Shown one piece after another: positions 26,585 to 42,135 of a stretch of DNA of 64,000 bases (the stretch's first letter is position 1; each line of letters begins with the position of its first letter). A program made the position numbers and the translations under genes. Origin of the DNA: Nitrospirota bacterium (lineage in GTDB: Bacteria; Nitrospirota; Nitrospiria; Nitrospirales; UBA8639); contig RFGF01000015.1 of the NCBI GenBank assembly GCA_003695915.1, positions 1-64,000 on the forward strand. The letters run 5' to 3'. The notes beneath the pieces are model-generated. The model worked only from the letters and a program-made list of their open reading frames with translations. It was not told the DNA's origin and did not search any database.

Positions 26585-28684
26585 CTAGGACGATACAGCC
26601 GCCTTTTCTCGTTTGCTTTCCTCGACGATCTTATTGATGAGGTCACGAGGCACCTCCTCATAGCCAGCAAATTCCATGACGTAACTTCCTTTTCCCGCCG
26701 TCATTGACGTGAGGGCAGGCGCGTATTTCAGCATTTCAGCCAACGGGACACAGGCTTTGATGATTTGGTTATGCCCTTTTGCCGACATCCCGAGAATTCG
26801 CCCGCGTCGTGCATTGAGATCCCCGATAATCGTTCCGACCAGATCATCGGGTACCGTCACCTCTACGGTCATCATGGGCTCCAGCAAGGTCGGTTGAGCG
26901 GATTCCAACGCCTTTTTGATCCCGAGCGAACCGGCGACTTTGAAGGCCAGCTCTGAAGAATCCACGGGATGGTGGGAGCCATCATAGACCGTGACTCGGA
27001 GATCGACAACCGGATATCCGGCCACGACTCCTTCCTGCAATGCCTCGATCACCCCTTTTTCGACCGCCGGAATAAAGTTTCGCGGGATGACACCGCCGAC
27101 AATTTTATTGTGGAATTCGAAGCCTCCGCCGCGGGGGAGTGGATCGACCTGCAACCAACAATCGCCATATTGGCCATGACCACCGGTTTGCTTTTTATAT
27201 TTTCCTTGTGCTTGCGCCGTGCGGTGAATCGTTTCCTTATACGGGACCTTCGGCGTATTCAATTTCACTTCCACGCCATATTTCCGTTTGAGCTTTTCCA
27301 GCGTGACATCGATATGGGTCTGTCCGACACCGCTCAACAACATTTCTTTGGTCTCGTCGTTGCGGACGAACTCCAGGGACGGATCCTCTTCCACCAGTTT
27401 ATGGAGCCCTAAGCTCACCTTATCGATGTCGGCCTTGCTTTTCGGTTCGAGCGCGAACGACATCACCGGTCGCGGAAGCACGAGCCGAGGGTACACGATG
27501 GGATGCTTGTCATCACAGATCGTATCCCCGGTTTGCGTTTCTTTGAGTTTTGCGACCACGGCAATGTCTCCTGCGATCACTTTGTCCGTCTGGGTATGCT
27601 TTTTCCCAAGGGGATGAAACACATGCCCGCCTTTTTCCTTGATATTTCGACTGGCATTCAAGAATCCGGAGTCGGCTTCGAGAACACCGGAATGCACACG
27701 AATAAAGGTCAGTCGCCCCATAAAAGGATCGATGGTGGTTTTGAAAACAACGGCTGAAAAAGGTTGAGCAGGATCGGGGTGTCGTTCGATCTGTTCGCCG
27801 GACTGGGGATGTGTTCCGAGCGGTGGATGAGTTTTGGCCCGCTCGACGGGCGATGGGAGGTAGGCGACCATTGCGTCCAGGAGGCTATGCATGCCGATAT
27901 TGTGCAAGGCGGCCCCGCAAAACACCGGAAGAAAGGTTCGCGATCGCGCGCCGGCAACGATGCCTTGAATCAAGGCCTCGGTTCCCAAGTTCCCGTTGGC
28001 AAGATATTGTTCGACAAGGGCGTCGTCTGTTTCAGCGGCGTGTTCCATGAGCATCCGTCTCGCCTCTTCCATTGTCGAGACGTAATCCGCTGGGATCGCC
28101 CCTTGTTGAATCTTAGCACTCGTAGGGCTTGCCGAGACGATCGCCCCATGGACTAAATCGATGACGCCTGTGAGCCCATCGGCCTCCCCCACTGGAATGA
28201 CAACCGGCACCACGTTGCGCTCCAGAGCCGTTCGGCAATCTTCGAGGATCTGACGGAAATCGGTCCGTTCTTTGTCGAGTTGGTTAATGAACAGGACGCA
28301 GGGCAAGTCCAGTTCAGAAATCCGGTCCCACACGCGTTCCAATTCGGTGCGAATCCCAACCGATGCGCCAATCACGAGAACAACGGCATCAGCGGCAGCC
28401 AGACACCATCGGGTGTCAGCGAAAAAATCCAGGGAGCCCGGGGTATCGATGAGATTGAGGCGATGCCCTTTCCAGAGCAATGACAAAACCGCGGAACTCA
28501 CGGAATGATGCCGATGTATTTCTTCCGGCTCGAAGTCGGCTACAGTCGAGCCCTTTTCGATGCTTCCCATGGTCTGAATCGCTCCCGCAGTAAAGGCGAG
28601 CGCTTCACAGAGCGACGTCTTTCCGGCACCAGGATACGAAGCCAATACGACATTGCGAATTTTCTCTGGACTGTAATCGCTCAT
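26585..28684 (-). CDS. EF-G-like translational GTPase paralogue (EF-G2 type)
   Basis: A 699-aa protein with the full EF-G domain plan. The GTPase domain is atypical. G1 is SYPGAGKTS and not the usual AHIDAGKTT, the G2 threonine region reads HRHHSVSSAV, and G3 is DTPGSLDF, so the histidine that activates water in EF-G is a serine (Ser84). G4 is NQLDK. These changes place it with EF-G-like paralogues and not the main fusA. Its exact ribosomal role is unknown. A perfect AGGAGG and a strong promoter precede it. It is convergent with htrA and divergent from the fusion gene at 29052. Confidence 0.9.
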   Translation of the reverse strand: MSDYSPEKIRNVVLASYPGAGKTSLCEALAFTAGAIQTMGSIEKGSTVADFEPEEIHRHHSVSSAVLSLLWKGHRLNLIDTPGSLDFFADTRWCLAAADAVVLVIGASVGIRTELERVWDRISELDLPCVLFINQLDKERTDFRQILEDCRTALERNVVPVVIPVGEADGLTGVIDLVHGAIVSASPTSAKIQQGAIPADYVSTMEEARRMLMEHAAETDDALVEQYLANGNLGTEALIQGIVAGARSRTFLPVFCGAALHNIGMHSLLDAMVAYLPSPVERAKTHPPLGTHPQSGEQIERHPDPAQPFSAVVFKTTIDPFMGRLTFIRVHSGVLEADSGFLNASRNIKEKGGHVFHPLGKKHTQTDKVIAGDIAVVAKLKETQTGDTICDDKHPIVYPRLVLPRPVMSFALEPKSKADIDKVSLGLHKLVEEDPSLEFVRNDETKEMLLSGVGQTHIDVTLEKLKRKYGVEVKLNTPKVPYKETIHRTAQAQGKYKKQTGGHGQYGDCWLQVDPLPRGGGFEFHNKIVGGVIPRNFIPAVEKGVIEALQEGVVAGYPVVDLRVTVYDGSHHPVDSSELAFKVAGSLGIKKALESAQPTLLEPMMTVEVTVPDDLVGTIIGDLNARRGRILGMSAKGHNQIIKACVPLAEMLKYAPALTSMTAGKGSYVMEFAGYEEVPRDLINKIVEESKREKAAVSS

Positions 28685-28710
28685 AGCCGTCCTCCTCGTT
28701 CTGTAGCCGC

Positions 28711-28739
28711 ATTCTAGGCGTGCGTCGGAGGGGTGTCAA
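28711..28739 (-). promoter_or_regulatory. Near-consensus sigma70 promoter of the EF-G-like gene
   Basis: On the minus strand TTGACA (28739-28734) and TAGAAT (28716-28711) are exactly 17 bases apart. Transcription would start near 28704, giving a leader of about 20 bases with AGGAGG just ahead of the start codon at 28684. Confidence 0.7.
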
Positions 28740-29051
28740 CGGACGAACAGTCGGTGCTTCCGTCAAAATCCCAAACACCGACGGCCGTTCCTGTCATATC
28801 CGGCGTCATGGTTGTTCCGGAAGTCATGCATCTGTTTTGCTGTGCAAGCCCGATAACGATCCAAACTTCTTGAAGAATCCATGCTTTGATCCCGATGCCG
28901 GCGATTGCGGATGGTGGGATCGGTTATGGCATAGCCGTTGCTTCATCGCTGTCTTGGGATATGGCAGGCCTTCCAGAGCACCGCATCGCTCATGCTTCGC
29001 GTTCAATTCTTGAACAACGAGTCATTCTAAAAGAGAAAGGAACGGAACCCG
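28740..29051. other. Intergenic region before the fusion gene
   Basis: Upstream of the minus-strand promoter, about 310 bases separate the divergent genes. I see an imperfect dyad (GTCGGTG and CACCGAC, about 28750-28783) and an AAGGA ahead of the 29052 start codon, but no convincing promoter for the rightward gene. Short frames here look non-coding. Confidence 0.35.
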
Positions 29052-31403
29052 ATGAATGCACGCCGAGACCTCACGCGCATCGATCGCCAGCCTTTCGTCA
29101 TCCGATCGCATGCTGTTCCTGAACCAACCACGTTCTTTCGAGGATCGCACCCGCCGCCATCCGGGTTGATCCCAACCCTCATCAAAGCTTCCGGTGCCAC
29201 CTGGAACGGGCACATCCACGCACGCTCGTTGACCACCGTGACCGTGACCTGTAAGGGATTGCCTCCTGTCTCACCGGCACAACGCGCATCCCTTCGCTGG
29301 GACACGCCGCTAGGGTGCATAGAGTTCGGTGCATGCATCGCTACGGTGTGCTCCGACCCCGACGTTCGCATGACGACGACGATCATCTTTGCCTTCGGTG
29401 ACCTCGACGAATTTACGCGGCACCGCTTGCAACGAGCCTGGCAACATTCCGCGATGGCTCGACGGATGCACCTGCATGTCTCTGTGCGACCGACCGATCA
29501 CCCTGAAACCCTCATCGACATGCTCAACGAAAGAGCGGGAGGCTCCCAGGCACTCGATCCGCGACATGAACCACCCCCGGTTTGTGACCCTACGACGCGC
29601 ATCCACCCGGCTCATCACATCCGAATAAAGCCCGCGCCCCAAATCCAGGTCGCCGAGCCACTCTCACGAGTTCATCAGGAGAAACCCTCGATCGTCAGTC
29701 GTGAAGTCCTCGTACGCAATCGGCACGGCGAGCGAATTGTCGGCTTTTGGGATTCGGCTCCCACGATGATTCGCGAAGGCGCTCCTGTGGCGATTGTGGC
29801 ATCTGCCTATGGAGAAACGAAACGGGATTCCCTCTCGCTCGCCTATCATCTGGCTGCCAACGGGTTTCACGTTATCCGTTATGATCACACCAATCATGTG
29901 GGAGAAAGCGACGGAGACCATATAATGACGACGCTCTCTCGCATGCACGATGATCTTCAGGATGTGTGGGGATGGGCCAGCCAGCACTTCCCTGCACATC
30001 CCACTGTTGTGATCGCCACAAGCCTCGCCGGTCGCGTGGCCCTCAAAGCGTCGAGAACTGCGAGGTGTCACCCTGAACTGCTCGTTTTGATCAATCCCGT
30101 TGTCGATATGCGACGGACGCTCCAAGCCGTCCATCAAGAGGATTTATTGGGTGACTACCAGCAGGGGAAACCTCGAGGCATTACCAATGTTCTGGGATTG
30201 AATGTCGATGGGCAACGTTGGTTAGCGGATGCGCATCGCGAGGGCTATACCGATTTAGAGACGACGATTCTCGACGGCCAACAACTCAGCAGCCCGATCA
30301 TCGTCTTCTCCAGCGAGCATGACGTGTGGGTGTCCTCTCGAGACGTGTCGCGCCTCACGACGGCAGTGGGGTCTCGACTCTACGGCTGGTTCATGATGCC
30401 CGGCGGTCTGCATCGTCTGGTCGAAAATCCTCGATTGGCCCGGCTGGTCTACGCCCATGTTGTACAACGCTGTCGTGTGATGTTTCAGGGTCTCCCCTCC
30501 ACATCTCCTCTTATGGAGCCAGATCAGCGCCAACTCGGCAAACAAAAGCGTTTAGAACGCCTGCGCGGCCGATTGGGGCTCATCCCGAGCGATTTAACCC
30601 AGTTCTGGAACGAGTATTTGGCCCATTTTGACTTTGTGATCAACAGCCATGATTATCGACAATTGCTCGACCATATTGTGCATTTACTGAACCCGCTGAA
30701 ATCCGGAGGACGCTTGTTAGATGCCGGATGTGGGAACGGAATACTCGCTGCTTTTCTTCTGACGTGTTCCGACTGGTTTACGCCGACCTGCCGTTCTCTT
30801 TTGTCACCTGTTCGCTATATTGGTTTGGATTTTGTGGCCTCTGCACTGTCGCGCGCTCGCAAGCGCATCGACCTGCTGCGCGCAAACACCAGTGATCATG
30901 CGACACGGAACGACCGGGCTGATGCATTTCGCCCTTCGTTCCTTCGCGCCGATCTTCGTTCCTCGTTGGCCTTCTCCAACCATACATTTGATGCCGTGGT
31001 TGCCAATCTCGTTCTCGGGTATCTGGCCGACCAGCAGCATTTTATTCGCGAATGTCTTCGTGTCTTAAAGCCCGGCGGAACGCTCATCGTAACCAATCTC
31101 AAACCCCATTCGGATCTCTCGCGGATTTACTGCAATTTTGTCCAACGGACACGGAAGCCAGAAGACATCGAAGAGGCCCGACATTTGCTCTCGAACGCCG
31201 GGAAAATTCGGGAAGCCGAAGGCGATGGCGTTTTTCAGTTTCCCGACAAAGAGGAGTTGCGCCGGCTTCTCCAATCGGCAAGCCCTGGCGCGCCTGTCCA
31301 AGTCTTCACGACCTTTGCCAACCAAGCGTATGTTGCCGTCCTACAAAAACCCGATCTCGCTCACCCTCGCACCTCATCCCCGTTTTGGGAACAGGCAGCG
31401 TGA
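29052..31403 (+). CDS. Three-part fusion: N-terminal unknown domain, LuxD-like acyl hydrolase, SAM methyltransferase
   Basis: A 783-aa cytoplasmic protein in three parts. Residues 1-160 form an unassigned beta-rich domain (TTVTVTCKGL ... IIFAFGDLDEFTRHRL), faintly PilZ-like but without the PilZ arginine and DxSxxG motifs. Residues 215-475 are an alpha/beta hydrolase whose candidate triad Ser324 (ATSLAG), Asp424 (EHDVW) and His454 (GGLHRL), together with YDHTNHVGESDG, resembles LuxD acyl-ACP thioesterases in order and spacing. Residues 520-690 are a class I methyltransferase with LLDAGCGNG (555-563), NLVLGYL and LRVLKPGGTLIVTN. A hydrolase releasing an acyl group that is then methylated is a possible logic but is inference. 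It is followed by a kinase gene after 428 bases. Confidence 0.8.
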   Translation: MNARRDLTRIDRQPFVIRSHAVPEPTTFFRGSHPPPSGLIPTLIKASGATWNGHIHARSLTTVTVTCKGLPPVSPAQRASLRWDTPLGCIEFGACIATVCSDPDVRMTTTIIFAFGDLDEFTRHRLQRAWQHSAMARRMHLHVSVRPTDHPETLIDMLNERAGGSQALDPRHEPPPVCDPTTRIHPAHHIRIKPAPQIQVAEPLSRVHQEKPSIVSREVLVRNRHGERIVGFWDSAPTMIREGAPVAIVASAYGETKRDSLSLAYHLAANGFHVIRYDHTNHVGESDGDHIMTTLSRMHDDLQDVWGWASQHFPAHPTVVIATSLAGRVALKASRTARCHPELLVLINPVVDMRRTLQAVHQEDLLGDYQQGKPRGITNVLGLNVDGQRWLADAHREGYTDLETTILDGQQLSSPIIVFSSEHDVWVSSRDVSRLTTAVGSRLYGWFMMPGGLHRLVENPRLARLVYAHVVQRCRVMFQGLPSTSPLMEPDQRQLGKQKRLERLRGRLGLIPSDLTQFWNEYLAHFDFVINSHDYRQLLDHIVHLLNPLKSGGRLLDAGCGNGILAAFLLTCSDWFTPTCRSLLSPVRYIGLDFVASALSRARKRIDLLRANTSDHATRNDRADAFRPSFLRADLRSSLAFSNHTFDAVVANLVLGYLADQQHFIRECLRVLKPGGTLIVTNLKPHSDLSRIYCNFVQRTRKPEDIEEARHLLSNAGKIREAEGDGVFQFPDKEELRRLLQSASPGAPVQVFTTFANQAYVAVLQKPDLAHPRTSSPFWEQAA

Positions 31404-31831
31404 GGTTCGTCTTCCACCAGTCTGGTCTTCCGAGATTGCTTTCCCGCAGCGACGCCGCGAAAAGGGTTGGATAAACGTTCGCAGCTGTCTTCGTGCCCGG
31501 CCCCAATCCCGTCCGATGCACCGAGTCGCTTGAACTCGGAATCGTTAGGCCCTCGCTCTTGAACGAGTTCTTCACAGCTTGTAGGACGAATCAACGGATG
31601 CGTCAAGCACGTCTTCTTTGCCCGGCTATCGGCAGGTCTTGTCAGGACCTGCCTCACTGTCATGGGCATCGTTCCCGATCGGGCGCCGTGTTGCGCTAAC
31701 TCCCAGTCGATGCTACTTTTGATCCATAACCGTGCGTTCAGACCCCGTTCTCGCAAGCTGTGATTCTGCTGCCTCCAGATGACCGAAGAAGGGGGTTCGC
31801 GATCGACTGTCACCCACCGTGAACGTGCACA
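31404..31831. other. Intergenic region with one small hairpin
   Basis: These 428 bases contain no convincing gene. An 8-bp inverted repeat with a 7-base loop (31631-31638 with 31646-31653) lacks a T tract, so it is at best a weak terminator for the fusion gene. I found no clear promoter for the kinase that starts at 31832. Confidence 0.4.
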
Positions 31832-34045
31832 ATGACGTTTTTGGCGATTAGCGGGCTCCTCAACGGCTTGGTCGCGCTTGGGCTCGGCATCACGCTCTAC
31901 GCGCATGCTCCCCGCAACCCCAAGCATTGGACCTATGGTCTGTACTGCGGAAGCATCGCCGTCTGGGGATTCGGGTACTGTGCATGGCAACTGGCCACAT
32001 CGGACACGATGGCGCTTGGCATGCTGCGCATACTCATGTTGGGGGCAGTTTTTATTCCCATCACCCATCTGCATCACGTCATCGCGCTTCTTGAGCTCAG
32101 CCGATCTCATCGGCACCTCGTTCGTTTCGGTTATCTGCTCAGCAGCCTTTTGGCGATCGGCATGCTGAGCCCCTATGGCGTGGCCGGCGTGCATGCCATG
32201 TTAGGATTCGCCTATTGGCCCCAGGCCGGTTCCGGTTTTGCATTGTATATCGTGTGGTTGGCATTTTGCGTCGGCTATGCCTCCTGTTTATTTGCCAAGG
32301 CGCATCGCGCAGCAACCGATACCCAGCGTTTCCAGTATCGGATTTTGATGGTCGCGTATCTCATCGGGTACATCGGCGGCGCGACCAATTTCCCTATCTG
32401 GTACGGTGTACCGTTTCCTCCTTATGGAACGATTTTCGTGAGCATTTACGCTATTGCGGTCGCCTCGATCCTCGTGCATGCCCGCTTGTTGGATGTCTCG
32501 CTGGCGGTCGAGCGCAGTTTGCCCTATGTCTTCATGGCGATTGTTGTCACCCCGGCGATCGCCGTATTTCTCTATGCGCAAGTACTGTATTTTGGTTCGA
32601 TGCATATGGAATTTTCGTTACTGGTTGCGCTCGTCTTTGGACTGTTCGTCATTGCCGGCACATGGATGTTGGTAAACATGCGAGCAGCTTTATCTTCGCT
32701 CCTGTTCCGAGAACGCCATGCGATGTACGAAGCCATGACCCATTTTTCCAAATCGCTGGTCACGAACCTCGATCTCCAGTCACTCTCTCGCGATTTGGTG
32801 CGCACAGTCGGACAACTCATGGGCATTCAGCACGTCACTCTGTACTTGCTCCAGCAAGATCAGCATGTCTTTGCTCCCGTTGCTCGGTACGGCAACATCC
32901 CCTCCCCGCCTGCCCCCCGCATCCCTGTCGATGCGCCGTTGCCCCGTCATCTTGCCCAGACTCGCGATCTTCTCGTGCCAACCGAGCTGGGTCAGCCCTG
33001 CTCGTCGGTCCAGGAGGACATTCAACAAAGTTGTGAGTTTTTGGGAGCCGAGGTGGGCTTGCCATTGGTCAGCAAGAATATGCTGTTCGGATTTTGTATT
33101 CTCGGCCCGCGTTCATCGAAAGAACGCTACGCGGAGGCCGATTTGGATTTGCTCCGAATGGTGTCGCAGGAAGCCGCGATTGCCTTGGACAACGCCCGGC
33201 TCTACGAAGAACTCAAACGATCTCAAGCGTTGGTTCGGCGAACGGATCGGCTCCGCTCATTGGAAATCATGGCGGGCGGACTCGCTCATGAGATTCGCAA
33301 TCCCTTGACCTCCATCAAGGCGTTCGTCGACTTGGCTCCCGAACGGCGAGACGACGAAGATTTTTTGATGCGCTTTAGTCGCATCGTCAAAGAGGATGTG
33401 GCTCGGATCGAACGACTCACACGGGAAATTCTGGACTACGCGCGTCCCACCGATCCTCATCTCCAGTACGAATCGCTCAATGAAATTGTCGAATCGTGCG
33501 TGTACAGTGTCAGGACGCGCCCCACCTACCGCACGACGACCTTCCAGCTGGAATTGGCTGGCGATCTTCCTGCGATTCTCGCGGATCGCCAACAAGTAAA
33601 ACAGGTATTGTTGAATCTATTATTGAACGGCTTGGAAGCCATGGGACCCCAAGGCGGGACACTCACGTTACGGACCTATGCTCTCAAAAAGGCGCATCGA
33701 GACGATGCATGTGTGGAAGTCAACGATACAGGACCGGGCATCGCCCCGGATGATCTGGAGCACATTTTCGACCCGTTCTTTACGACCAAACATCTCAGTT
33801 CGGAACATGAAGGAACCGGGTTAGGTTTAGCCATTGCCCATCAGATTGTCCAAGAACATCGGGGCTGCATCGAAGTCTCCAGTCAACTCGGACATGGAAC
33901 CACATTTATCATTCGGTTTCCCGTCCCGCATGCTGATTCCGTTCATCAAGGCGCCTCATCTCGCGGCGAGCAGTCTCTTTCGCCCGGAACGATCGAGTCC
34001 ATGTCGCAGCCCTCTATCGGGAACTCCTTGCCTTTTCAGGCCTAG
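31832..34045 (+). CDS. Membrane sensor histidine kinase, 7TM-GAF-HisKA-HATPase (PrsK-like)
   Basis: A 737-aa kinase. Residues 1-285 hold about eight hydrophobic segments like the 7TM sensor of PrsK kinases from the PEP-CTERM/exosortase system. A GAF domain covers about 300-455. The phosphoacceptor His486 lies in GGLAHEIRNPL, and the ATPase domain has NLLLNGLEAM, DTGPGIAPD, FDPFFTTK and [12 protein letters not shown]. No response regulator or exosortase gene is adjacent, so the output is unknown. Its last 32 bases overlap the end of the convergent O-methyltransferase gene. Confidence 0.88.
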   Translation: MTFLAISGLLNGLVALGLGITLYAHAPRNPKHWTYGLYCGSIAVWGFGYCAWQLATSDTMALGMLRILMLGAVFIPITHLHHVIALLELSRSHRHLVRFGYLLSSLLAIGMLSPYGVAGVHAMLGFAYWPQAGSGFALYIVWLAFCVGYASCLFAKAHRAATDTQRFQYRILMVAYLIGYIGGATNFPIWYGVPFPPYGTIFVSIYAIAVASILVHARLLDVSLAVERSLPYVFMAIVVTPAIAVFLYAQVLYFGSMHMEFSLLVALVFGLFVIAGTWMLVNMRAALSSLLFRERHAMYEAMTHFSKSLVTNLDLQSLSRDLVRTVGQLMGIQHVTLYLLQQDQHVFAPVARYGNIPSPPAPRIPVDAPLPRHLAQTRDLLVPTELGQPCSSVQEDIQQSCEFLGAEVGLPLVSKNMLFGFCILGPRSSKERYAEADLDLLRMVSQEAAIALDNARLYEELKRSQALVRRTDRLRSLEIMAGGLAHEIRNPLTSIKAFVDLAPERRDDEDFLMRFSRIVKEDVARIERLTREILDYARPTDPHLQYESLNEIVESCVYSVRTRPTYRTTTFQLELAGDLPAILADRQQVKQVLLNLLLNGLEAMGPQGGTLTLRTYALKKAHRDDACVEVNDTGPGIAPDDLEHIFDPFFTTKHLSSEHEGTGLGLAIAHQIVQEHRGCIEVSSQLGHGTTFIIRFPVPHADSVHQGASSRGEQSLSPGTIESMSQPSIGNSLPFQA

Positions 34046-35081
34046 GTTCTCGAGAGGTCCCGCGCCGTTTTCCCGCGGATCCCTCCACGATCACGCCTTC
34101 CCAATCACCGGTTCCCGGTTTCAACTTGATCAGGCGCTGGCTCGTACAGCCGACCGTTTTCAGCCACGCGAGTACCTCACGAACATGGTAGGTATTGCCC
34201 GTTTCCGTAAAGAGCAGCATGGTCACGGCGAACAAATTCGCTTCCGCGGGGCGCAATCCCTCTTTGTCCGTCAGAAACGTATCTTGAATGAGAAGACGCC
34301 CACCGGGGTTGAGCGCCTGCTTGGCTAGCCTTAGAAGACGGATGTTTTCCGCAGCAGAATAAATATGAATCACATTGGAAATCCACACCACATCGAATCC
34401 CTGTGGCCAGGGCGTGGTAAACAAATCGCCGGGGTACAGATGCAACCGCGCGCGTTGAGGTCGCGAGTCGGCAATCTCTTTGGCCACCTCCAATGCCGCA
34501 GGTCGATCCATCACGGTCGCATGCAGTTGAGGGTTTTTTCTCAAGAATGCGAGAGCATAGGTCCCAGGCCCACCGCCGACGTCCAATAACGATCGGGCCC
34601 CACTCAAATCGAGCTGTGATGCTACCTCTCGGGCAGACTCGATCGAGCGTTGATGCATGGCCCAGGTAAAGGCACGTCGATACTCCGGCGTCTCCGGTTC
34701 CTTATCATCGACAGGTTTTCCAGTCTTGACGGCCTGTGTCAAGTGAGACCAGTCCTCCCATTGCCGACGGAGAAGATCCAGATAGGCTCCGCGATATGTT
34801 GGGCTGTTCGCGTTGAGCACGTGTTGCGCCAATGGACTAGCTCGATAGCGAGGGCCCTGTTTTTTTAACAGCCCTGCCGTCGCAAGGTTTCTGCAGAGTA
34901 TCTCAACGCCACGCTCGCTGGCGGAAAGCGCGTTGGCTAATTGACGAACCGTCCAAGTGGTTCTTCCCATCACGGTAAAGATATCGAGCTCGATGGCGCT
35001 TAAAAGAATTCTCGGAAGCCGAAAGGCGAACACGGCATCACGAAATTGGTCGAAGTTCCGAATAGAAGCAATCTCTGACAT
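34014..35081 (-). CDS. SAM-dependent O-methyltransferase of the hydroxyneurosporene/acetylserotonin type
   Basis: A 355-aa methyltransferase with an N-terminal winged-helix dimerisation domain (residues 10-95) and a C-terminal Rossmann domain with SAM motif LLDVGGGPGTYA (165-176). This two-domain plan is that of O-methyltransferases acting on small aromatic or polyketide substrates. IQDTFL and the H-containing segment SNVIHIYSA fit the family. The substrate is unknown. The basic C-terminal tail (GKRRGTSREPRPEKARSSR) is antisense to the kinase 3' end and may be an extension. Confidence 0.85.
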   Translation of the reverse strand: MSEIASIRNFDQFRDAVFAFRLPRILLSAIELDIFTVMGRTTWTVRQLANALSASERGVEILCRNLATAGLLKKQGPRYRASPLAQHVLNANSPTYRGAYLDLLRRQWEDWSHLTQAVKTGKPVDDKEPETPEYRRAFTWAMHQRSIESAREVASQLDLSGARSLLDVGGGPGTYALAFLRKNPQLHATVMDRPAALEVAKEIADSRPQRARLHLYPGDLFTTPWPQGFDVVWISNVIHIYSAAENIRLLRLAKQALNPGGRLLIQDTFLTDKEGLRPAEANLFAVTMLLFTETGNTYHVREVLAWLKTVGCTSQRLIKLKPGTGDWEGVIVEGSAGKRRGTSREPRPEKARSSR

Positions 35082-35235
35082 CGTCCGGCATTCGCAAGGT
35101 TACGGAGAAAAATTTGATTGAACGGTTTTCGATGATGTGCGGCTCAAGCATGCACAGCCAAATGTGTCGAATAACATGTTGGCAACAGCAAGCCCGCTTC
35201 AAGCAGGCACGGCCGACCATCATCGGGCAAATCCG

Positions 35236-35682
35236 TCAGCCCGATGTGCCCGACGAGCGAAATCGAGCTTGATAGGAGCGAATGAGGTCTAGCAGCTTCT
35301 TCGGATCGTTCAATTCGACGGGCTTTTCAAAGGATACGGCGACATAGTCTCCCGTCATTTCCACTCGTTCTTCACATCCGTGTTGGAGCAGCCATGGTCG
35401 GTACTTTGCCGTGGCTTGTTGGAGATAAAATTTGACTTGTTTGGCCAACTCATCGTTGCCAAGATCCTCCGCCGTTCCATCGGAGAGGATGCTTCGCATA
35501 TCTTCGAGCTCATATCCGGCCTGGCATCGCAAAATGCCGTCAGGACCAAGCTCGAGAATCCAGTCTTCGTCATCTAAGCGGAGCAGAAGATCATGGTCGG
35601 ATGAATCACGAGCCAATTCCGGAATCTGTGAAAGAAGATAGGCTCGCGTGTTATGCCATACATCTGTAGGCATGGTGCTCAT
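35236..35682 (-). CDS. Unknown 148-aa protein coupled to the TPR gene
   Basis: A soluble acidic protein with no signal peptide or membrane segment. It is not recognised. The N-terminal half has short beta-like strands (DDEDWILELGPDGILRCQAG) and the middle is acidic and helical; this resembles small immunity or secretion-chaperone folds only in general size. Its ATG overlaps the TPR gene stop as ATGA (35679-35682), so the two are translationally coupled. It is the last gene of the cassette that runs from 37386. Confidence 0.65.
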   Translation of the reverse strand: MSTMPTDVWHNTRAYLLSQIPELARDSSDHDLLLRLDDEDWILELGPDGILRCQAGYELEDMRSILSDGTAEDLGNDELAKQVKFYLQQATAKYRPWLLQHGCEERVEMTGDYVAVSFEKPVELNDPKKLLDLIRSYQARFRSSGTSG

Positions 35683-36509
35683 GAAAGCACAGACGAGCGA
35701 TGGGCTGGAGCGGAGGTCGGTTGGCTCTTCTGGCGCTGAATCAATGCCTCGAGCCGAGCCGTATTTTCCTGTAACTTCGGGAGGCGGAATTTTCGATCAA
35801 TGCGAACGACGAGCGTCAAGCACTCGATAGCTTCGGCGATTTGTCCCATATCTTCAAAGCACTCAGCAAGCACGTACTGAGCCCCACCCACACGTAATTC
35901 ATCATGAAGTCGCTCTGCCATGGCTAAGCTCGTGCGAGCGCAAGCCAGGGCCTCTTGCCTGCGGCCCATCGCGAGATATAACCGAGCAATCATTCGATAG
36001 ACATCAGCTTGTCCAGCGATGTTGTGCGCTTGCCGCATGAGACGAAGCGCTTCGTCGTAGTAGCTCAGTGCCAGATCGAACTCGCCCATTTCTTTCGCGA
36101 CCAGGCCGAGGTCCGAAAGCAAGACGGCTTTGGCTCCGATGTCGCCGGTTCGATTCATCAGATCCAGCGCCTCTAAATAATACGCGCGGCCCCGTTCCCA
36201 TTCCCCGGCATCCACGCACAGGTTTCCCAAATTGGCCAATGTCGCGCCGATGCCTCGATCATCTCCCAGATTTTTTTGGAGTTCCAACACTTCGAGATAA
36301 TATTGGTGGGCTTGCTCGCGCCGTCCACTGACCGCGCAAATGTTTCCGAGGTTCCCCATAGTCGTTGCGACTGCGCGACAATCGCCGCCGCGACGATCGA
36401 ATTCCAAGGCGCGGATGTAACAGCGATAGGCTTCTGTATAATATCCGCGTGAGAAATACCGATTCCCCAGTTCATTCAGATAGGCAGAGGACGATTCCAA
36501 CATTGTCAT
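35679..36509 (-). CDS. Tetratricopeptide repeat protein
   Basis: A 276-aa protein made almost entirely of TPR-like helix pairs, about six repeats from residue 8 to 245, with recurring A-x-x-LGNLGNxC and Y-x-EALxL patterns. The longer 40-residue spacing resembles the Kinesin-light-chain/FxxxLxN class of TPRs. It has no signal peptide, so it should act as a cytoplasmic scaffold. Its partner is unknown; the coupled 148-aa protein downstream is a candidate. The start could be ATG 36509 or 36503. Confidence 0.8.
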   Translation of the reverse strand: MTMLESSSAYLNELGNRYFSRGYYTEAYRCYIRALEFDRRGGDCRAVATTMGNLGNICAVSGRREQAHQYYLEVLELQKNLGDDRGIGATLANLGNLCVDAGEWERGRAYYLEALDLMNRTGDIGAKAVLLSDLGLVAKEMGEFDLALSYYDEALRLMRQAHNIAGQADVYRMIARLYLAMGRRQEALACARTSLAMAERLHDELRVGGAQYVLAECFEDMGQIAEAIECLTLVVRIDRKFRLPKLQENTARLEALIQRQKSQPTSAPAHRSSVLS

Positions 36510-36553
36510 CCACTTGGATCAAGCTCATCACGCAAGACAGAGACAGAACAGCC

Positions 36554-37150
36554 CTAAGATTGAAGGATCTGTTGGAGTGCGGATTTGGCTTCTCGCCAAA
36601 TGCAAACTCCGTCTCCGACGAGCAATGTGGTGAACTCGTATTTCAGGAGGCGCTGCAAGCCGCGTTTGGCTTTCTCGATATCGGCATATTTATCCGGTGG
36701 AAGAAGACGAAGCGAGTCGGGAGGATCACCGATGACGGCATCTCCAACAATTATGATGCCCCCCTGGTGCTGAAGATACAACGCTGACTCGCCCGGTGTT
36801 TTCTGGTCCTGTAACTGGATGACCCAGATTCCTCCCGGCAACAATTCTCCATCCGTAAACGTTTTGTCGATCTCCATAGTCATCGCCGCTGCATCCGCTT
36901 CCGGAGCAAAAACGCGACAGCGAAATTCCTCGCGATACCGATCCGCCTCTCGTTGATGATCACGGTTGGTGATCACAATGTAGTCGATGGGACCACCCTG
37001 ACGGATTTCCGCCATTTCCTGGGGAGATAAGGGCGGAGGATCGACAAGCACGCGATGGTCTCCGACATGCAATAAATGGCCATTGAAATCCAATTGCTTT
37101 TCCGGAGAAAACCACGACCATTGCCAAATGTGCGGCAGCACGGGTCTCAT
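36554..37150 (-). CDS. Metallo-beta-lactamase-fold protein with degenerate metal site
   Basis: A 198-aa protein with the MBL fold pattern (strand-turn VGDHRVLVDPP, then IVITNRDHQREA, TPGESALYL, GGIIIVGDAVIGDPP). The HxHxDH motif is reduced to TNRDH (residues 61-65), and the usual later histidines are replaced (VGDGV near 178). Canonical two-metal hydrolysis is therefore doubtful, though relatives with TNxDH occur in the superfamily. Its start overlaps the stop of the 79-aa gene as ATGA. Confidence 0.75.
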   Translation of the reverse strand: MRPVLPHIWQWSWFSPEKQLDFNGHLLHVGDHRVLVDPPPLSPQEMAEIRQGGPIDYIVITNRDHQREADRYREEFRCRVFAPEADAAAMTMEIDKTFTDGELLPGGIWVIQLQDQKTPGESALYLQHQGGIIIVGDAVIGDPPDSLRLLPPDKYADIEKAKRGLQRLLKYEFTTLLVGDGVCIWREAKSALQQILQS

Positions 37151-37386
37151 AACGAGGCGATCGTCTCCTTGAGCAGTGTCATGGTTTTTTGTCGGATATC
37201 GTCTTCGCTTATCAGGTCCAACATATCGTCTTCCGGCACGGTAATGAATTTCCGGTTAGCCCCTTTCGTCAGCGATATCAGGAATAAGCCATTGGACGGC
37301 GAGGTCGGAATCACCACCTCGACCTGGGCATCGATTGCTTTGACGAGCTCCAAAAACTGCTGCTTCCCCTCCTCAAAATTTTCCAT
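37147..37386 (-). CDS. Unknown 79-aa protein
   Basis: A short acidic protein with central beta-like segment (GLFLISLTKGANRKFITVP) and a helical C-terminus. It is not recognised. The frame is supported by its tight ATGA coupling to the MBL gene downstream and by its position at the head of the cassette. No signal peptide is visible. Confidence 0.55.
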   Translation of the reverse strand: MENFEEGKQQFLELVKAIDAQVEVVIPTSPSNGLFLISLTKGANRKFITVPEDDMLDLISEDDIRQKTMTLLKETIASL

Positions 37387-37468
37387 CAGGCCAATCGGCT
37401 CCTTTCTCTATCGGTTCCCAAACAGGACAGCGTCCGAGATGGAAGTTATCTGTCCACCGTAACACGCG

Positions 37469-38017
37469 TCACGTGTGCGGCGATGTCGGAGGCTTCGCTT
37501 CTGCAAGCAATTTTTCCACTTCTTGAAGAATCACATCGGCATCGGCTAAATCCATGTTTCCCACCCGCTGCCATCGGATAATGCCCTGTTGATCGATGAT
37601 ATACACGTTGGGAATGAATCGGCCCCCACCATAGAGCTTATCTGTCATGCGTTCTGGATCAATGGCATAAGGATAGGTTACTTTCACTGGAAAATGTTGA
37701 AGAAACTCTTGAACATCAGCCAGAGAATCTCCTGAAGAATTCACGCCGATAACCGCCACAGGCTTCCCTTGTGTACGCTCGTGGACTGTCTGCAAATTGG
37801 TCCCCTGGATCAGACATGGCTCGCAAATATGAAAGAGTCCTAAAACCACGACCTTCCCGCGTAAGTGTTTTAACGAAATGGTCTCTCCAGTTACTGTGGT
37901 CAATGTAAAATCGGGTGCGACTTCGCCGACTTTAAAAAAACTTCCAGCAGGCGCGGTGGATGTTCCAGCGAGGACTGCTCCCCCTATCGCGAGGAAGAAC
38001 AAAAGAGCACGAGTCAT
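37469..38017 (-). CDS. Exported thioredoxin-like protein (TlpA/AhpC-TSA family)
   Basis: A 182-aa redoxin. A signal peptide (MTRALLFFLAIGGAVLAG) is followed by the AhpC/TSA-type opening VGEVAPDFTLTTVTGE and a CxxC active site CEPC at residues 65-68, then FIPNVYIIDQQG with the cis-proline region. It should act in the periplasm in thiol-disulfide exchange, for example in cytochrome maturation or protection. GGAGTG sits at a good distance before the ATG. It follows pelG by 151 bases on the same strand. Confidence 0.85.
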   Translation of the reverse strand: MTRALLFFLAIGGAVLAGTSTAPAGSFFKVGEVAPDFTLTTVTGETISLKHLRGKVVVLGLFHICEPCLIQGTNLQTVHERTQGKPVAVIGVNSSGDSLADVQEFLQHFPVKVTYPYAIDPERMTDKLYGGGRFIPNVYIIDQQGIIRWQRVGNMDLADADVILQEVEKLLAEAKPPTSPHT

Positions 38018-38168: not shown

Positions 38169-39539
38169 TTATTGAAGCATGAACGTTTCATATTCCAACT
38201 TTTGGAGTTTCTTGTTTAAAAGCATCATGCCGACGATGACTACTAGCAAAAGGGATCCGGCAAACCCATAGCCATAATACAAGGGCCCAGCATGGATCGA
38301 CCAAGCCGTCAATCCGGCATTGCCGACCAAAAACAAGCATGAGAGCCATACGGCCTCTCTACGCTTGTCCAAATAAAACAACACATTAAGGATGCCGAGA
38401 AACAGGACTTGAAGCCCAGCGCCGACAATAAACACATACAGCAACGATTCATAGACATTGGCGATGCCCAGCCAATCGAGAAGCGTAGGTCCACCTGCCC
38501 AAATCACCAAGCACACGGCCCCTTGCACTTTGATGATTTCCAACAAGCCATGGCGCACGATCACCATCATCTCCTGTTTTGCGCGCCGAATCGTGTCGAG
38601 CGGAGCGCCCTCGCGAATGGCCGTGTAAAACGCTTCGTGTCGTTCGACAAAATCGGTCTCCATGCGCACAAGGAAACTCGCCATAGCCGGTAGAATGGAT
38701 AAATAGGCCAGGAAGATGGGAAGATCGTACAGAGGCGCAGACCGGATCGGACCGATCACCGCGACACTCGTTTCGGGCACGAACCAAAACAACAGTTTGT
38801 CGATCCAAATGGCCAGATTGTACACGAAGCCCAACAGGACCAGACTGAGATACATGCGATTGCGATTCAGGAAATCCCACGAGAACAGAAGCTCTGAGGG
38901 ATAGTGGCGAAAGATCAATGCCATCATCCCGAACAACATCGTCGTTTGTCCGAGAAAAAATCCCAGTAGCAATCCTTCCATGCCGAGGGGACGCAACCCC
39001 AACGATGCCGCGATCGCGATGCCGTACCCCACGGCATACATCGCGAGAATCGCCTGATACGCCTTTATGCCAGAAAGAAAGATCGTGGCAATCCAGATAT
39101 TGCCCAAGACGACAAAACTCCCGATCATGAGCGCACGGTAGAGCGCACTTTCTTGAGCGAAGAAGCCCCATATCACCACGCTGCCCACCAACCCGCACAA
39201 CAGCGTGACCACGCAAATGGCTCCGTGGAAATTGCCCAGTACGACGTGATCCTGCTTCTCGAACAGACGATCGGAGACGTAACGCGTGAAGGCGGGTTGA
39301 ATGAAGCCTGTCAGGATGAGACTGCCCGCGATCAGATAGGTGGCCGATAATTGAAACTGCTGGATGAGCACATCAGGCACGACGACCGTGAGGCTGAACA
39401 TGCCCACGACCAGAATGCCGATAATGGAGAGGATCCACGGGCCGGAACTAATGACGCCGGCATAGGCATAGGCTTGGATAACCGAGAGGTAGGTATCGCG
39501 GGTCAGGATTTTGCGAAGTTCAAAGCCGATTCCGGCCAT
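38169..39539 (-). CDS. pelG: Pel polysaccharide inner-membrane protein PelG
   Basis: A polytopic membrane protein thought to work with PelD, PelE and PelF in making and moving Pel polymer across the inner membrane. The ATG at 39539 gives 456 aa, the size of the Pseudomonas protein, beginning MAGIGFELRKILTRD. About twelve hydrophobic helices are spread along it in a flippase-like arrangement. The open frame continues 186 codons upstream, but that part is a shadow of pelF. It overlaps pelF by 37 bases and is the last pel gene. Confidence 0.93.
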   Translation of the reverse strand: MAGIGFELRKILTRDTYLSVIQAYAYAGVISSGPWILSIIGILVVGMFSLTVVVPDVLIQQFQLSATYLIAGSLILTGFIQPAFTRYVSDRLFEKQDHVVLGNFHGAICVVTLLCGLVGSVVIWGFFAQESALYRALMIGSFVVLGNIWIATIFLSGIKAYQAILAMYAVGYGIAIAASLGLRPLGMEGLLLGFFLGQTTMLFGMMALIFRHYPSELLFSWDFLNRNRMYLSLVLLGFVYNLAIWIDKLLFWFVPETSVAVIGPIRSAPLYDLPIFLAYLSILPAMASFLVRMETDFVERHEAFYTAIREGAPLDTIRRAKQEMMVIVRHGLLEIIKVQGAVCLVIWAGGPTLLDWLGIANVYESLLYVFIVGAGLQVLFLGILNVLFYLDKRREAVWLSCLFLVGNAGLTAWSIHAGPLYYGYGFAGSLLLVVIVGMMLLNKKLQKLEYETFMLQ

Positions 39540-41050
39540 GTCTGCATGGCTCCTTGATACATCGCCGCATACCGAGCGATCATCGCCCTGGCGGTATACC
39601 GGGCTTCGACCCGTTTGATTCCCGCCGCCTGAGCGGCTCTCCACCGCTCGCCATCCGTCAATAAGGTCAGCGCCTCGTGAGCCAGCGCTTCGGGGTTGGC
39701 AATGGGGACGACGGCACCGGCTGCGCCGAACTCGTCGCCTTCCGCCCCTTCGCCGTAAACGAGTTCGCGACAGGCTCCCACGTCCGTCGTGACGGACGGC
39801 ACGCCCGCCGCCATCGCCTCCAAGACCACGAGCGGGAGCGCCTCGCTGATCGAGCTCAAGACCAACAGGCCGATGCGGGGAAGCAACTCGTCTACGCGCT
39901 GAAAGCCCAAGAATTTCATGCGAGCGCGCATGCCTAAGTTCTCGACGAGGTGGCGGCACTCCGTCACGTACTCCGGGTCTTCTTCCTCGGGACCCGCAAT
40001 CCAGCCCTCTGCGTGTGGGATGTGATTCAACACCGTGCGAAACGCACGAATGAAGGTTTTCACATCTTTGACGGGAACGACTCGCCCGATGAGACACAAC
40101 ACCGGGGGAGGTAATGGAGGGCGTTGGTAACGAAGGGGAACAAACCGTTCGACGGGGATACCGTTCGGGACGACCCTCGTTCGCTGGGGATCGGCGCCGT
40201 CCTGAATTTGTCGCTGCCGATTCGCTTCATAGAGCGACACGATCGGATCGGCGGCCGCATAGCATAGCCGTCCCAAAGTATCGAAAAACCGAATCCATAG
40301 ATGCTGGAAATAGCTCAGATGATCAGTCCCTTTTTCGAACGACCATCGATGATCACGAAGCCATGTCGCCTGGAATAAGTCGATTGTACGCTCTTTCGTG
40401 TAAATACCGTGTTCCGACAGAATGAGCGGGCGTTTCGTTCGATGGTGGAGCAATGCTCCAAGAAATCCCGCATAGCCTGTGGAGACTGTATGATAGACTT
40501 TTCCCGCGGCGCATTGAGAGACAGCACGGCCCAGCGTCCAGATTGGCTCGTGCATGGCTCGGACCGTCCAGAAAAAATCGATGAACGAGGGATCGGTACA
40601 ATGGTGTTCGTACACCTCGGTCAGATACGACCAGGCGGTCTCGCTATATAAAAATTCCGCTTGCAATGCGCGCGGATAACAGGACACGAGCCACATCATA
40701 TCGTCCACCATGCTCTTGGCGTGTGCACAAGGCTCTCCCCTGCGCATCCAATCGTGCAGCCGGCGCATAAATTCCATGATCCGCGGTTCGCCGGGTCGAG
40801 GGGAGACCGGAGGCTGGTCCTGGCCCGCATGCACATAATGGTGTTCCAGATGGACCACATGTGGCGGCAGATCGTATTTCGGCTCGCCATAATCCTCGGG
40901 ACGACTTCCGAGAAAGACCACTCCGAAACGATAATGAGGCAAGGCGGTGATCAACTGATGCACCCAACTCGAGACACCACCGCTGACATAGGGATAGGTG
41001 CCTTCCAGCAGAAGGACGATATCGATCTCATTGTGGCTGGCAGGCTTCAT
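39503..41050 (-). CDS. pelF: Pel polysaccharide glycosyltransferase PelF
   Basis: A cytoplasmic GT4-family glycosyltransferase that polymerises the Pel chain from UDP-amino sugars. Start ATG 41050 overlaps the pelE stop (ATGA) and gives 515 aa. Typical marks are the N-terminal LLLEGTYPYVSGGVSSW, LSEHGIYTKER, the nucleotide-binding GRVVPVKD, and the retaining GT4 E-x7-E pair at Glu403 and Glu411 (SEALPLVVLEAMAAG). PelF proteins begin exactly with this EGTYPYVxGGVSSW signature, which makes the call firm. Confidence 0.95.
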   Translation of the reverse strand: MKPASHNEIDIVLLLEGTYPYVSGGVSSWVHQLITALPHYRFGVVFLGSRPEDYGEPKYDLPPHVVHLEHHYVHAGQDQPPVSPRPGEPRIMEFMRRLHDWMRRGEPCAHAKSMVDDMMWLVSCYPRALQAEFLYSETAWSYLTEVYEHHCTDPSFIDFFWTVRAMHEPIWTLGRAVSQCAAGKVYHTVSTGYAGFLGALLHHRTKRPLILSEHGIYTKERTIDLFQATWLRDHRWSFEKGTDHLSYFQHLWIRFFDTLGRLCYAAADPIVSLYEANRQRQIQDGADPQRTRVVPNGIPVERFVPLRYQRPPLPPPVLCLIGRVVPVKDVKTFIRAFRTVLNHIPHAEGWIAGPEEEDPEYVTECRHLVENLGMRARMKFLGFQRVDELLPRIGLLVLSSISEALPLVVLEAMAAGVPSVTTDVGACRELVYGEGAEGDEFGAAGAVVPIANPEALAHEALTLLTDGERWRAAQAAGIKRVEARYTARAMIARYAAMYQGAMQTWPESALNFAKS

Positions 41051-42135
41051 GGCGTTCTCGCTGCCTGTAAGTCTGTCGATCCTACCCAGCGATCGGCGAT
41101 CGATCGAGGCTCGTTCCGCCAATAGGCCGCCACCGCCTGTAAAAGCGGGACATCTTCTATGAACAATGCCTCCCTAAAATACGAACGCACGGATGCGAAA
41201 TCCTTTTCTCGAAAGGCCAATTCAGCCAAGTAGGGTATGACGCGGCTCTCTGGCGCGCCATATTCACGAGCCTTGTGAAGGGCTGTCCGTGCCTCTGCCC
41301 ACGCTTCCCCCCGGAGCGCAATTTGGCCTAACAGCGCCCATATGCCAGGGTTGCGCTCATCAACAGCCAAGGCCTCATGGGCATACTGACGCGCTTGTGA
41401 CAAGACATGAACGGCCACGTCACCCTGTACCAAGTCTTCGAACACGAGTTCCCAAAAGGCCAGAGCCAATACTCGCGCATGCTCGGCTCGTGTCTGGGCA
41501 TCCGAACATTGTCGATACCATTCCAATTCTCGATTGATGCGGGCTTGAATAGCCTGCTCTTTTTTATCCAGCATGCCAAAGGCGACGAGCCGAACCTCTT
41601 CGACGCTATCGTGTAGAGCATGCCGAAAAAGCGGCGTGGCGTACCGCCCTTCCAATGCTTGTAATTTCCCCAGTGTCTTGAGTCGTGTCTCTACCGGGAC
41701 GGCAGAGGACATCAGCCGGCCGATGACATCTGAGCTTGGGGACGCGATGACCTCAGCAGGACGATGTTCCTGTGACCGCTCTCCCAGGCGCTGGATACCC
41801 TCGACATCGAATCGTTTTTGCTGTCGATGAGCCAGACCTACCAACAACAAGACACCCACAGCGCCCAACGCGGGGACGAACAATGTCAGCCCACTGAATA
41901 GGACCCCAAGGCCCCAGCGAGGCGCTTTGGCATGATTCGGCACCCCCACCTCCCCTAACCAGCCAATCCCCAGACTCAGCAGGACATGGGCCAACCCGTG
42001 CGTCCAAGAGATCGAGAACTGATCCGAAAACAGCAGGGCCGGGATTCCCACCACCTCAATGAGTGTGGCTAGGCACAAGCAGATGATGATCATCATGACT
42101 GCAGGGGAAAGCATCTTCCAGTACCGATACGGCAT
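41047..42135 (-). CDS. pelE: Pel polysaccharide protein PelE (membrane anchor with TPR-like domain)
   Basis: PelE proteins have two N-terminal membrane helices and a cytoplasmic TPR region that bind PelD and PelG. Here helices lie at about residues 14-35 and 45-110 (two to three segments), then a soluble part with two or three TPR-like units (about 225-300, HEALAVDERNPGIWALLGQIALRG). The start is uncertain: ATG 42135 (362 aa), ATG 42114 or ATG 42096 would all work, and all overlap pelD. The stop overlaps pelF as ATGA. Confidence 0.85.
   Translation of the reverse strand: MPYRYWKMLSPAVMMIIICLCLATLIEVVGIPALLFSDQFSISWTHGLAHVLLSLGIGWLGEVGVPNHAKAPRWGLGVLFSGLTLFVPALGAVGVLLLVGLAHRQQKRFDVEGIQRLGERSQEHRPAEVIASPSSDVIGRLMSSAVPVETRLKTLGKLQALEGRYATPLFRHALHDSVEEVRLVAFGMLDKKEQAIQARINRELEWYRQCSDAQTRAEHARVLALAFWELVFEDLVQGDVAVHVLSQARQYAHEALAVDERNPGIWALLGQIALRGEAWAEARTALHKAREYGAPESRVIPYLAELAFREKDFASVRSYFREALFIEDVPLLQAVAAYWRNEPRSIADRWVGSTDLQAARTP

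Follow-up and report, generated by a model that had tools for sequence, protein, structure and literature searches.

Why does a Nitrospirota genome encode a LuxD-type acyl hydrolase and a methyltransferase in a single polypeptide, and what might such an enzyme make? In the window (the whole 64,000-nucleotide stretch of DNA that was analyzed) both domains lie in one ATG-initiated frame of 783 codons, as the sequence-only reading of this DNA had proposed, and the next gene on the same strand encodes a membrane-bound sensor kinase; the features of the two genes are listed in Table 1.

Table 1. Features of the fusion gene and of the neighboring kinase gene, in window positions
Feature	Position	Strand	Basis
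Fusion gene, PilZ-like + LuxD-type hydrolase + methyltransferase	29052..31403	+	Open frame, ATG start, 783 aa
Degenerate PilZ domain, residues 34-155	29151..29516	+	Profile-profile match, model, PDB fold matches
LuxD-type alpha/beta hydrolase (PF02273), residues 228-493	29733..30530	+	Pfam; 1tht best by sequence and fold
Predicted catalytic Ser324 codon	30021..30023	+	Matches Ser114 of 1tht; conserved in all 20 members of the catalytic set
Predicted catalytic Asp424 codon	30321..30323	+	Matches Asp211 of 1tht; conserved throughout the catalytic set
Predicted catalytic His454 codon	30411..30413	+	Matches His241 of 1tht; conserved throughout the catalytic set
Class I SAM methyltransferase, residues 533-742, motif I LDAGCGNG	30648..31277	+	Pfam, conserved residues
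Sensor histidine kinase, 7TM - GAF - HisKA - HATPase, 737 aa	31832..34045	+	Pfam; next gene downstream
Predicted seven-helix membrane sensor region, kinase residues 1-235	31832..32536	+	PF16927 score, hydropathy

Three domains in one chain

The middle domain of the fusion protein scores well over the Pfam cut-off for PF02273 (78.3 bits against 20.3, E = 7.8e-22), and the top match of the whole protein in a phmmer search of the PDB is 1tht (E = 5.8e-16), which is the Vibrio harveyi myristoyl-ACP thioesterase (LuxD). Counted along the phmmer alignment, S324, D424 and H454 of the fusion fall on S114, D211 and H241 of 1tht, the residues of the LuxD triad; both the triad and the LuxD-like spacing that had been proposed for it thus held up, and the triad is intact in all scorable full-length members of the family outside one decayed clade (below). 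An AlphaFold2 model of the fusion, made from a 20-member alignment, has good confidence for most of both enzyme domains. When this model was compared with the PDB by Foldseek, a comparison that the sequence-only reading had suggested for the middle domain, 1tht again ranked first (E = 3.3e-16, TM 0.82 over the target), ahead of RebM and similar methyltransferases and of further alpha/beta hydrolases, so that no other hydrolase subfamily fits the domain better than LuxD in either search. The LuxD equivalog is also the top NCBIfam match, yet its score of 79.5 is far below the cut-off of 420. The domain is a LuxD-family hydrolase with a complete triad, and activity on acyl-ACP is predicted for it from the sequence and the model. 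It has the PF02273 family membership, the fold and the Ser-Asp-His triad in common with LuxD proper, but it differs in being joined to a methyltransferase, in being paired with a kinase, in falling so far under the equivalog cut-off and in having no LuxC or LuxE partner. Searches of the genome for the latter two (PF05893 and PF04443) gave no match; the enzyme does therefore stand outside a lux operon, as had been claimed, and a reading in which it serves a Lux-type aldehyde pathway was rejected.

The class I methyltransferase that had been assigned to the same chain is equally clear (PF13489, E = 6.9e-16; PF08241, E = 7.7e-15), and its motif I, D593 and D634 are conserved among homologues. It reaches none of the fatty-acid O-methyltransferase family cut-offs, its closest solved kin in phmmer and Foldseek searches are natural-product methyltransferases, and its score against BioC (TIGR02072) is 43.1 bits, below the cut-off of 184.95.

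The N-terminal beta-rich domain, which had been left as unassigned, is instead a degenerate PilZ domain. Relatives of the fusion bear recognizable PilZ domains at the same place, several of them with canonical motifs, and hhalign matched N-termini of the window type to these domains with a probability of 96.7 (E = 3.1e-10, 96 columns). A separate model of the N-terminal region (pLDDT 83) has six barrel strands and a helix, and its sensible top Foldseek matches are PilZ proteins (2gjg/3kyf, BcsA, MrkH and MotI, with E values of 4e-3 and up). Some relatives, L047 and L065 for example, have the RxxxR and (D/N)xSxxG motifs; these were sought in the window protein and its nearest kin and are absent there, so binding of c-di-GMP by the window copy appears unlikely from its residues. 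The domain is a Nitrospirota add-on that probably once linked synthesis to c-di-GMP.

Distribution of the fusion and its pairing with a sensor kinase

The fusion was present in 32 of the 60 related genomes sampled and is thus neither a chance event nor an assembly accident; the claim that a LuxD-type hydrolase is joined to a methyltransferase therefore stands, but not as a single occurrence. Scanning of GTDB contigs with a single-protein query gave no matches, and an alignment-based query found homologues in Nitrospirales (including Ca. Nitrospira defluvii), Omnitrophica, Elusimicrobia and many Opitutales. Of 396 genomes of the phylum, 93 have a PF02273 match, although some of these matches are weak ones that fall on ordinary hydrolases; an Opitutales-centered search gave 8 of 132 genomes and an Omnitrophica-centered one 7 of 285. 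Opitutales, deep Nitrospirota and Omnitrophota have mostly a bare LuxD-methyltransferase protein of about 550–570 aa (for example L102:9992-11710, 572 aa, without PilZ), which we take as the core form, to which PilZ, REC-PAS-PilZ-PilZ or polyketide-cyclase domains have been added in some lineages. An Omnitrophota protein (L191:8361-10499) has an N-terminal Polyketide_cyc domain (PF03364) where Nitrospirales have PilZ.

The window fusion is preceded by a gene for an EF-G-family protein (26585-28684, minus strand), and methyltransferase, TPR and thioredoxin-like genes lie downstream (34014-38017, minus strand). Most genomes from the window's family keep this order around the fusion, and the chromosomal position of the locus is thus fixed. 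Beyond these genes, at 38169-41122 on the minus strand, is a PelF glycosyltransferase gene (NF038011, 737 bits) that adjoins one judged by eye to encode a PelG-like membrane protein; a Pel-type polysaccharide locus so near the pair is a possible regulatory target. Window positions 28500-34500 gave no Rfam matches, predictions of a terminator scan were at the level of shuffled sequence, and a promoter scan gave 6 promoter-like sites against 2.9 expected, none of them upstream of the fusion or the kinase on the plus strand.

The kinase encoded next to the fusion has HATPase (E = 1.8e-27) and HisKA (E = 1.3e-11) domains. Its match to HisKA_7TM (PF16927) is 25.1 bits against a cut-off of 28.6, relatives scoring 49.8, 57.8 and 60.0, and hydropathy displays seven hydrophobic peaks within residues 1-281; these two lines of evidence are independent of our custom 7TM profile, whose match to the window kinase is circular because that kinase was among its seeds. 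The overall layout is similar to that of PrsK, the histidine kinase of the XrtA/PEP-CTERM system, but the score against the PrsK equivalog (TIGR02916) is 119.3 bits, under the cut-off of 300, with a match that covers residues 251-697, and so we do not file the partner as PrsK.

How constant is this partnership? Of the 68 scorable homologues that bear the triad, 67 are directly followed on their own strand by a 7TM kinase gene (the exception being L033), the pair spans Nitrospirota, Omnitrophota, Elusimicrobiota and Verrucomicrobiota (Opitutales), and the stop and start codons of the two genes often overlap (ATGA). In the window the gap is 429 nt, so a single transcript is not assured there. 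Tree distances of enzyme and kinase are correlated with r = 0.92 (59 pairs, 999 permutations, p = 0.001); part of this value comes from linked genes being inherited together, but the linkage itself holds across phylum-level distances. A 1641-aa PilZ-LuxD-methyltransferase-7TM-kinase polypeptide in L079 and L161 was not taken as proof of partnership: the C-terminus of its methyltransferase runs into a shifted frame, and it is probably a frameshift artefact.

One Nitrospirales clade (L050-L058, L047, L049, L092, L163 and L164, with the layout REC-PAS-PilZ-PilZ-LuxD-methyltransferase) has versions of about 1100–1435 aa in which the residue at the position of Ser324 is N, D or G and, in most members, the Asp and His are lost as well. 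An adjacent 7TM kinase was found in none of its 13 scorable cases, and the kinase that follows these copies (423 aa in L050, for example) is without the 7TM domain; in the group of loci examined a soluble kinase is followed by an NtrC-type regulator and a regulator with HD-type output. Judged by their residues, these proteins look like pseudoenzyme scaffolds, and in some Nitrospira genomes an active copy persists alongside a decayed one (G054, with L038 and L052; G041, with L037 and L053). Over rows, loss of the triad and loss of the 7TM kinase are perfectly associated, yet on the tree just one triad change is needed, so we dropped their use as independent contrasts. As a single event the joint loss is suggestive, and it fits the idea that catalysis would belong with the 7TM receptor.

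Fatty-acid genes and FadL-type porins beside the pairs of relatives

In four deep-branching loci the pair lies amid fatty-acid-synthesis genes, among them genes for ketoacyl synthase (KAS) and acyl carrier protein (ACP). Two of these loci, from two other families of Nitrospirota (L153 and L154), have the order FabF - ACP - [LuxD + methyltransferase] - 7TM kinase - second kinase - regulator, in which neighboring genes are a few bases apart. The Omnitrophota locus L192 has, on one strand, PlsC, a polyketide-cyclase/NAD(P)-binding fusion, [LuxD + methyltransferase], 7TM kinase and regulator, then KAS - KAS - ACP - FabZ - SDR, and in L191 the cassette is inside a plsX-fabH-fabD...fabG-acpP-fabF locus. 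Over its whole extent (L192:1-9946) the first of these Omnitrophota loci has the appearance of a type II fatty-acid or polyketide-like cluster enclosing the pair.

In Opitutales the context is a different one: at 15 loci a divergent kinase and a FadL/TodX-family porin (PF03349, E = 4.7e-50 in L102) lie just upstream of the pair. The divergent kinase is of the GAF type (L102:6615-9822 and the 14 other loci), and a further protein with GAF and degenerate receiver domains is encoded downstream of the pair's own kinase at the same 15 loci. Near the pair in genomes of the window's family no ACP, KAS or FadL gene was found, so that this context comes from relatives alone; the window's family presumably draws its acyl chains from general fatty-acid synthesis.

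A putative acyl signal and its receptor

Taken together, a LuxD-type site joined to a methyltransferase, ACP and KAS genes or FadL in some lineages, and a membrane kinase in nearly all of them lead us to read the pair as a synthase for an acyl signal together with its receptor. We infer, with moderate confidence, that the fusion makes an acyl-derived product and that the adjacent kinase senses it. In such a scheme an acyl chain would be presented on ACP, from general fatty-acid synthesis or, in some relatives, from the neighboring KAS-ACP set; the LuxD-type domain would take it onto Ser324 and release it as the free acid or to an acceptor; and the methyltransferase domain would methylate the chain with SAM, most simply at the carboxylate, which would yield a fatty-acid methyl ester. 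The hydrophobic product would then reach the seven-helix domain of the kinase, which would pass phosphate to a response regulator, and in Opitutales the FadL-type porin could move the product across the outer membrane. The sequence-only reading had hinted at a pathway for a lipid or fatty-acid methyl ester or for a signal; this hint is substantially strengthened by genes on which that reading had not drawn, namely the 7TM kinase, the FabF-ACP and other fatty-acid genes of deep relatives and the FadL of Opitutales. That the product is a methyl ester in particular is a possibility we hold at somewhat less than even confidence.

Two known systems invite comparison. In Ralstonia the methyltransferase PhcB makes a 3-hydroxy fatty-acid methyl ester that is sensed by the kinase PhcS (PMC11960443, PMC13220807). 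The likeness lies in the placing of a methyltransferase gene next to one for a sensor kinase, as in the 67 of 68 cases above, and in the acyl-derived signal logic proposed for the fusion; but PhcB is described as a methyltransferase with no LuxD fusion and the output regulators differ, and the two are likened here by their descriptions. By this analogy the best reading is that the fusion-kinase pair may work like PhcB-PhcS with a different synthase architecture. Nitrospira, of the same phylum as the window, has AHL quorum sensing with the LuxI and LuxR proteins of nspI and nspR1 and a lux-box promoter (PMC8553950), which resembles our proposal in that its signal is acyl-derived, but this system is without a LuxD-type fusion and without a kinase receptor. 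A full-text literature search, with many subscription journals outside its coverage, returned no description of such a fusion or pairing.

Could the pair instead serve lipid housekeeping, the enzyme trimming or methylating acyl chains of membrane or storage lipids and the kinase reporting the state of the membrane with no exported signal? The fatty-acid-synthesis context, the PlsC and PlsX neighbors and FadL fit this equally well, and the decayed paralogues bear intracellular REC and PAS input domains. A housekeeping gene would not be expected to be as patchy as this one, however (32 of 60 relatives; 8 of 132 genomes in the Opitutales search), and its almost invariable association with a 7TM kinase of its own speaks for signaling, so we regard this explanation as unlikely, though it is the strongest of the alternatives. 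Somewhat less likely again is a signal of another kind, a fatty aldehyde, ketone or other acyl derivative, for which the LuxD domain would feed a reductase or the methyltransferase would act on carbon or hydroxyl. C-methyltransferases are among the Foldseek matches, and acyl-ACP-reductase-like genes occur in two Omnitrophota loci: L193 (TIGR04058, 147 bits, about 8 kb away) and L192, with its polyketide-cyclase/NAD(P)-binding fusion. Neither the window nor the other lineages read have such a reductase next to the pair, and the genome's lack of LuxC and LuxE again speaks against an aldehyde. The L193 stretch in question (L193:11439-13973, Omnitrophica) holds two acyl-ACP-reductase-like genes and a polyketide-cyclase-like gene, and one of the former has a PigE-like match as well.

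BioC and BioH are likewise a methyltransferase/hydrolase pair that acts on ACP-bound acids, and the fusion might in principle perform biotin-type chemistry, its methyltransferase forming a malonyl-ACP methyl ester as BioC does and its hydrolase acting as BioH to yield pimeloyl-ACP. The likeness extends to a methyltransferase with an alpha/beta hydrolase, and no protein of this genome exceeds the BioC cut-off, but the BioC match of the fusion itself is weak (43 bits, cut-off 185), its hydrolase is of the LuxD type and its partner is a kinase. Moreover, all 60 relatives have bioF, whereas the fusion occurs in 32 of them, so that biotin synthesis is independent of the fusion, and no biotin gene lies beside the fusion in any locus read; this distribution so weakens the BioC-BioH reading that we consider it very improbable. 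Equally improbable is receptor adaptation, in which the fusion would methylate and demethylate the neighboring kinase as CheR and CheB do chemoreceptors, since, for all that a methyltransferase and an esterase-fold domain in one chain are tightly linked to a receptor kinase and co-vary with it, the hydrolase is LuxD-type and not CheB-type and the ACP and KAS genes of deep relatives are left unexplained.

We return to the proposed acyl-signal synthase and its receptor. Tentatively, and with confidence only a little short of even, we suggest that these loci form an undescribed signaling class that spans four or more phyla (Nitrospirota, Omnitrophota, Elusimicrobiota and Verrucomicrobiota) and in which a one-polypeptide acyl-ACP hydrolase/methyltransferase would make a lipid signal and a co-encoded 7TM kinase would read it, some lineages having a KAS-ACP-FabZ supply of their own or else a FadL-type porin, while one clade has a synthase that would now be a catalytically dead REC/PAS/PilZ scaffold. 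If this is true, nitrite-oxidizing Nitrospirota and the little-studied Opitutales and Omnitrophota would own a fatty-acyl signaling separate from AHLs, the LuxD family would have a role outside bioluminescence, and a synthase together with its receptor would be in hand as a defined two-gene unit.
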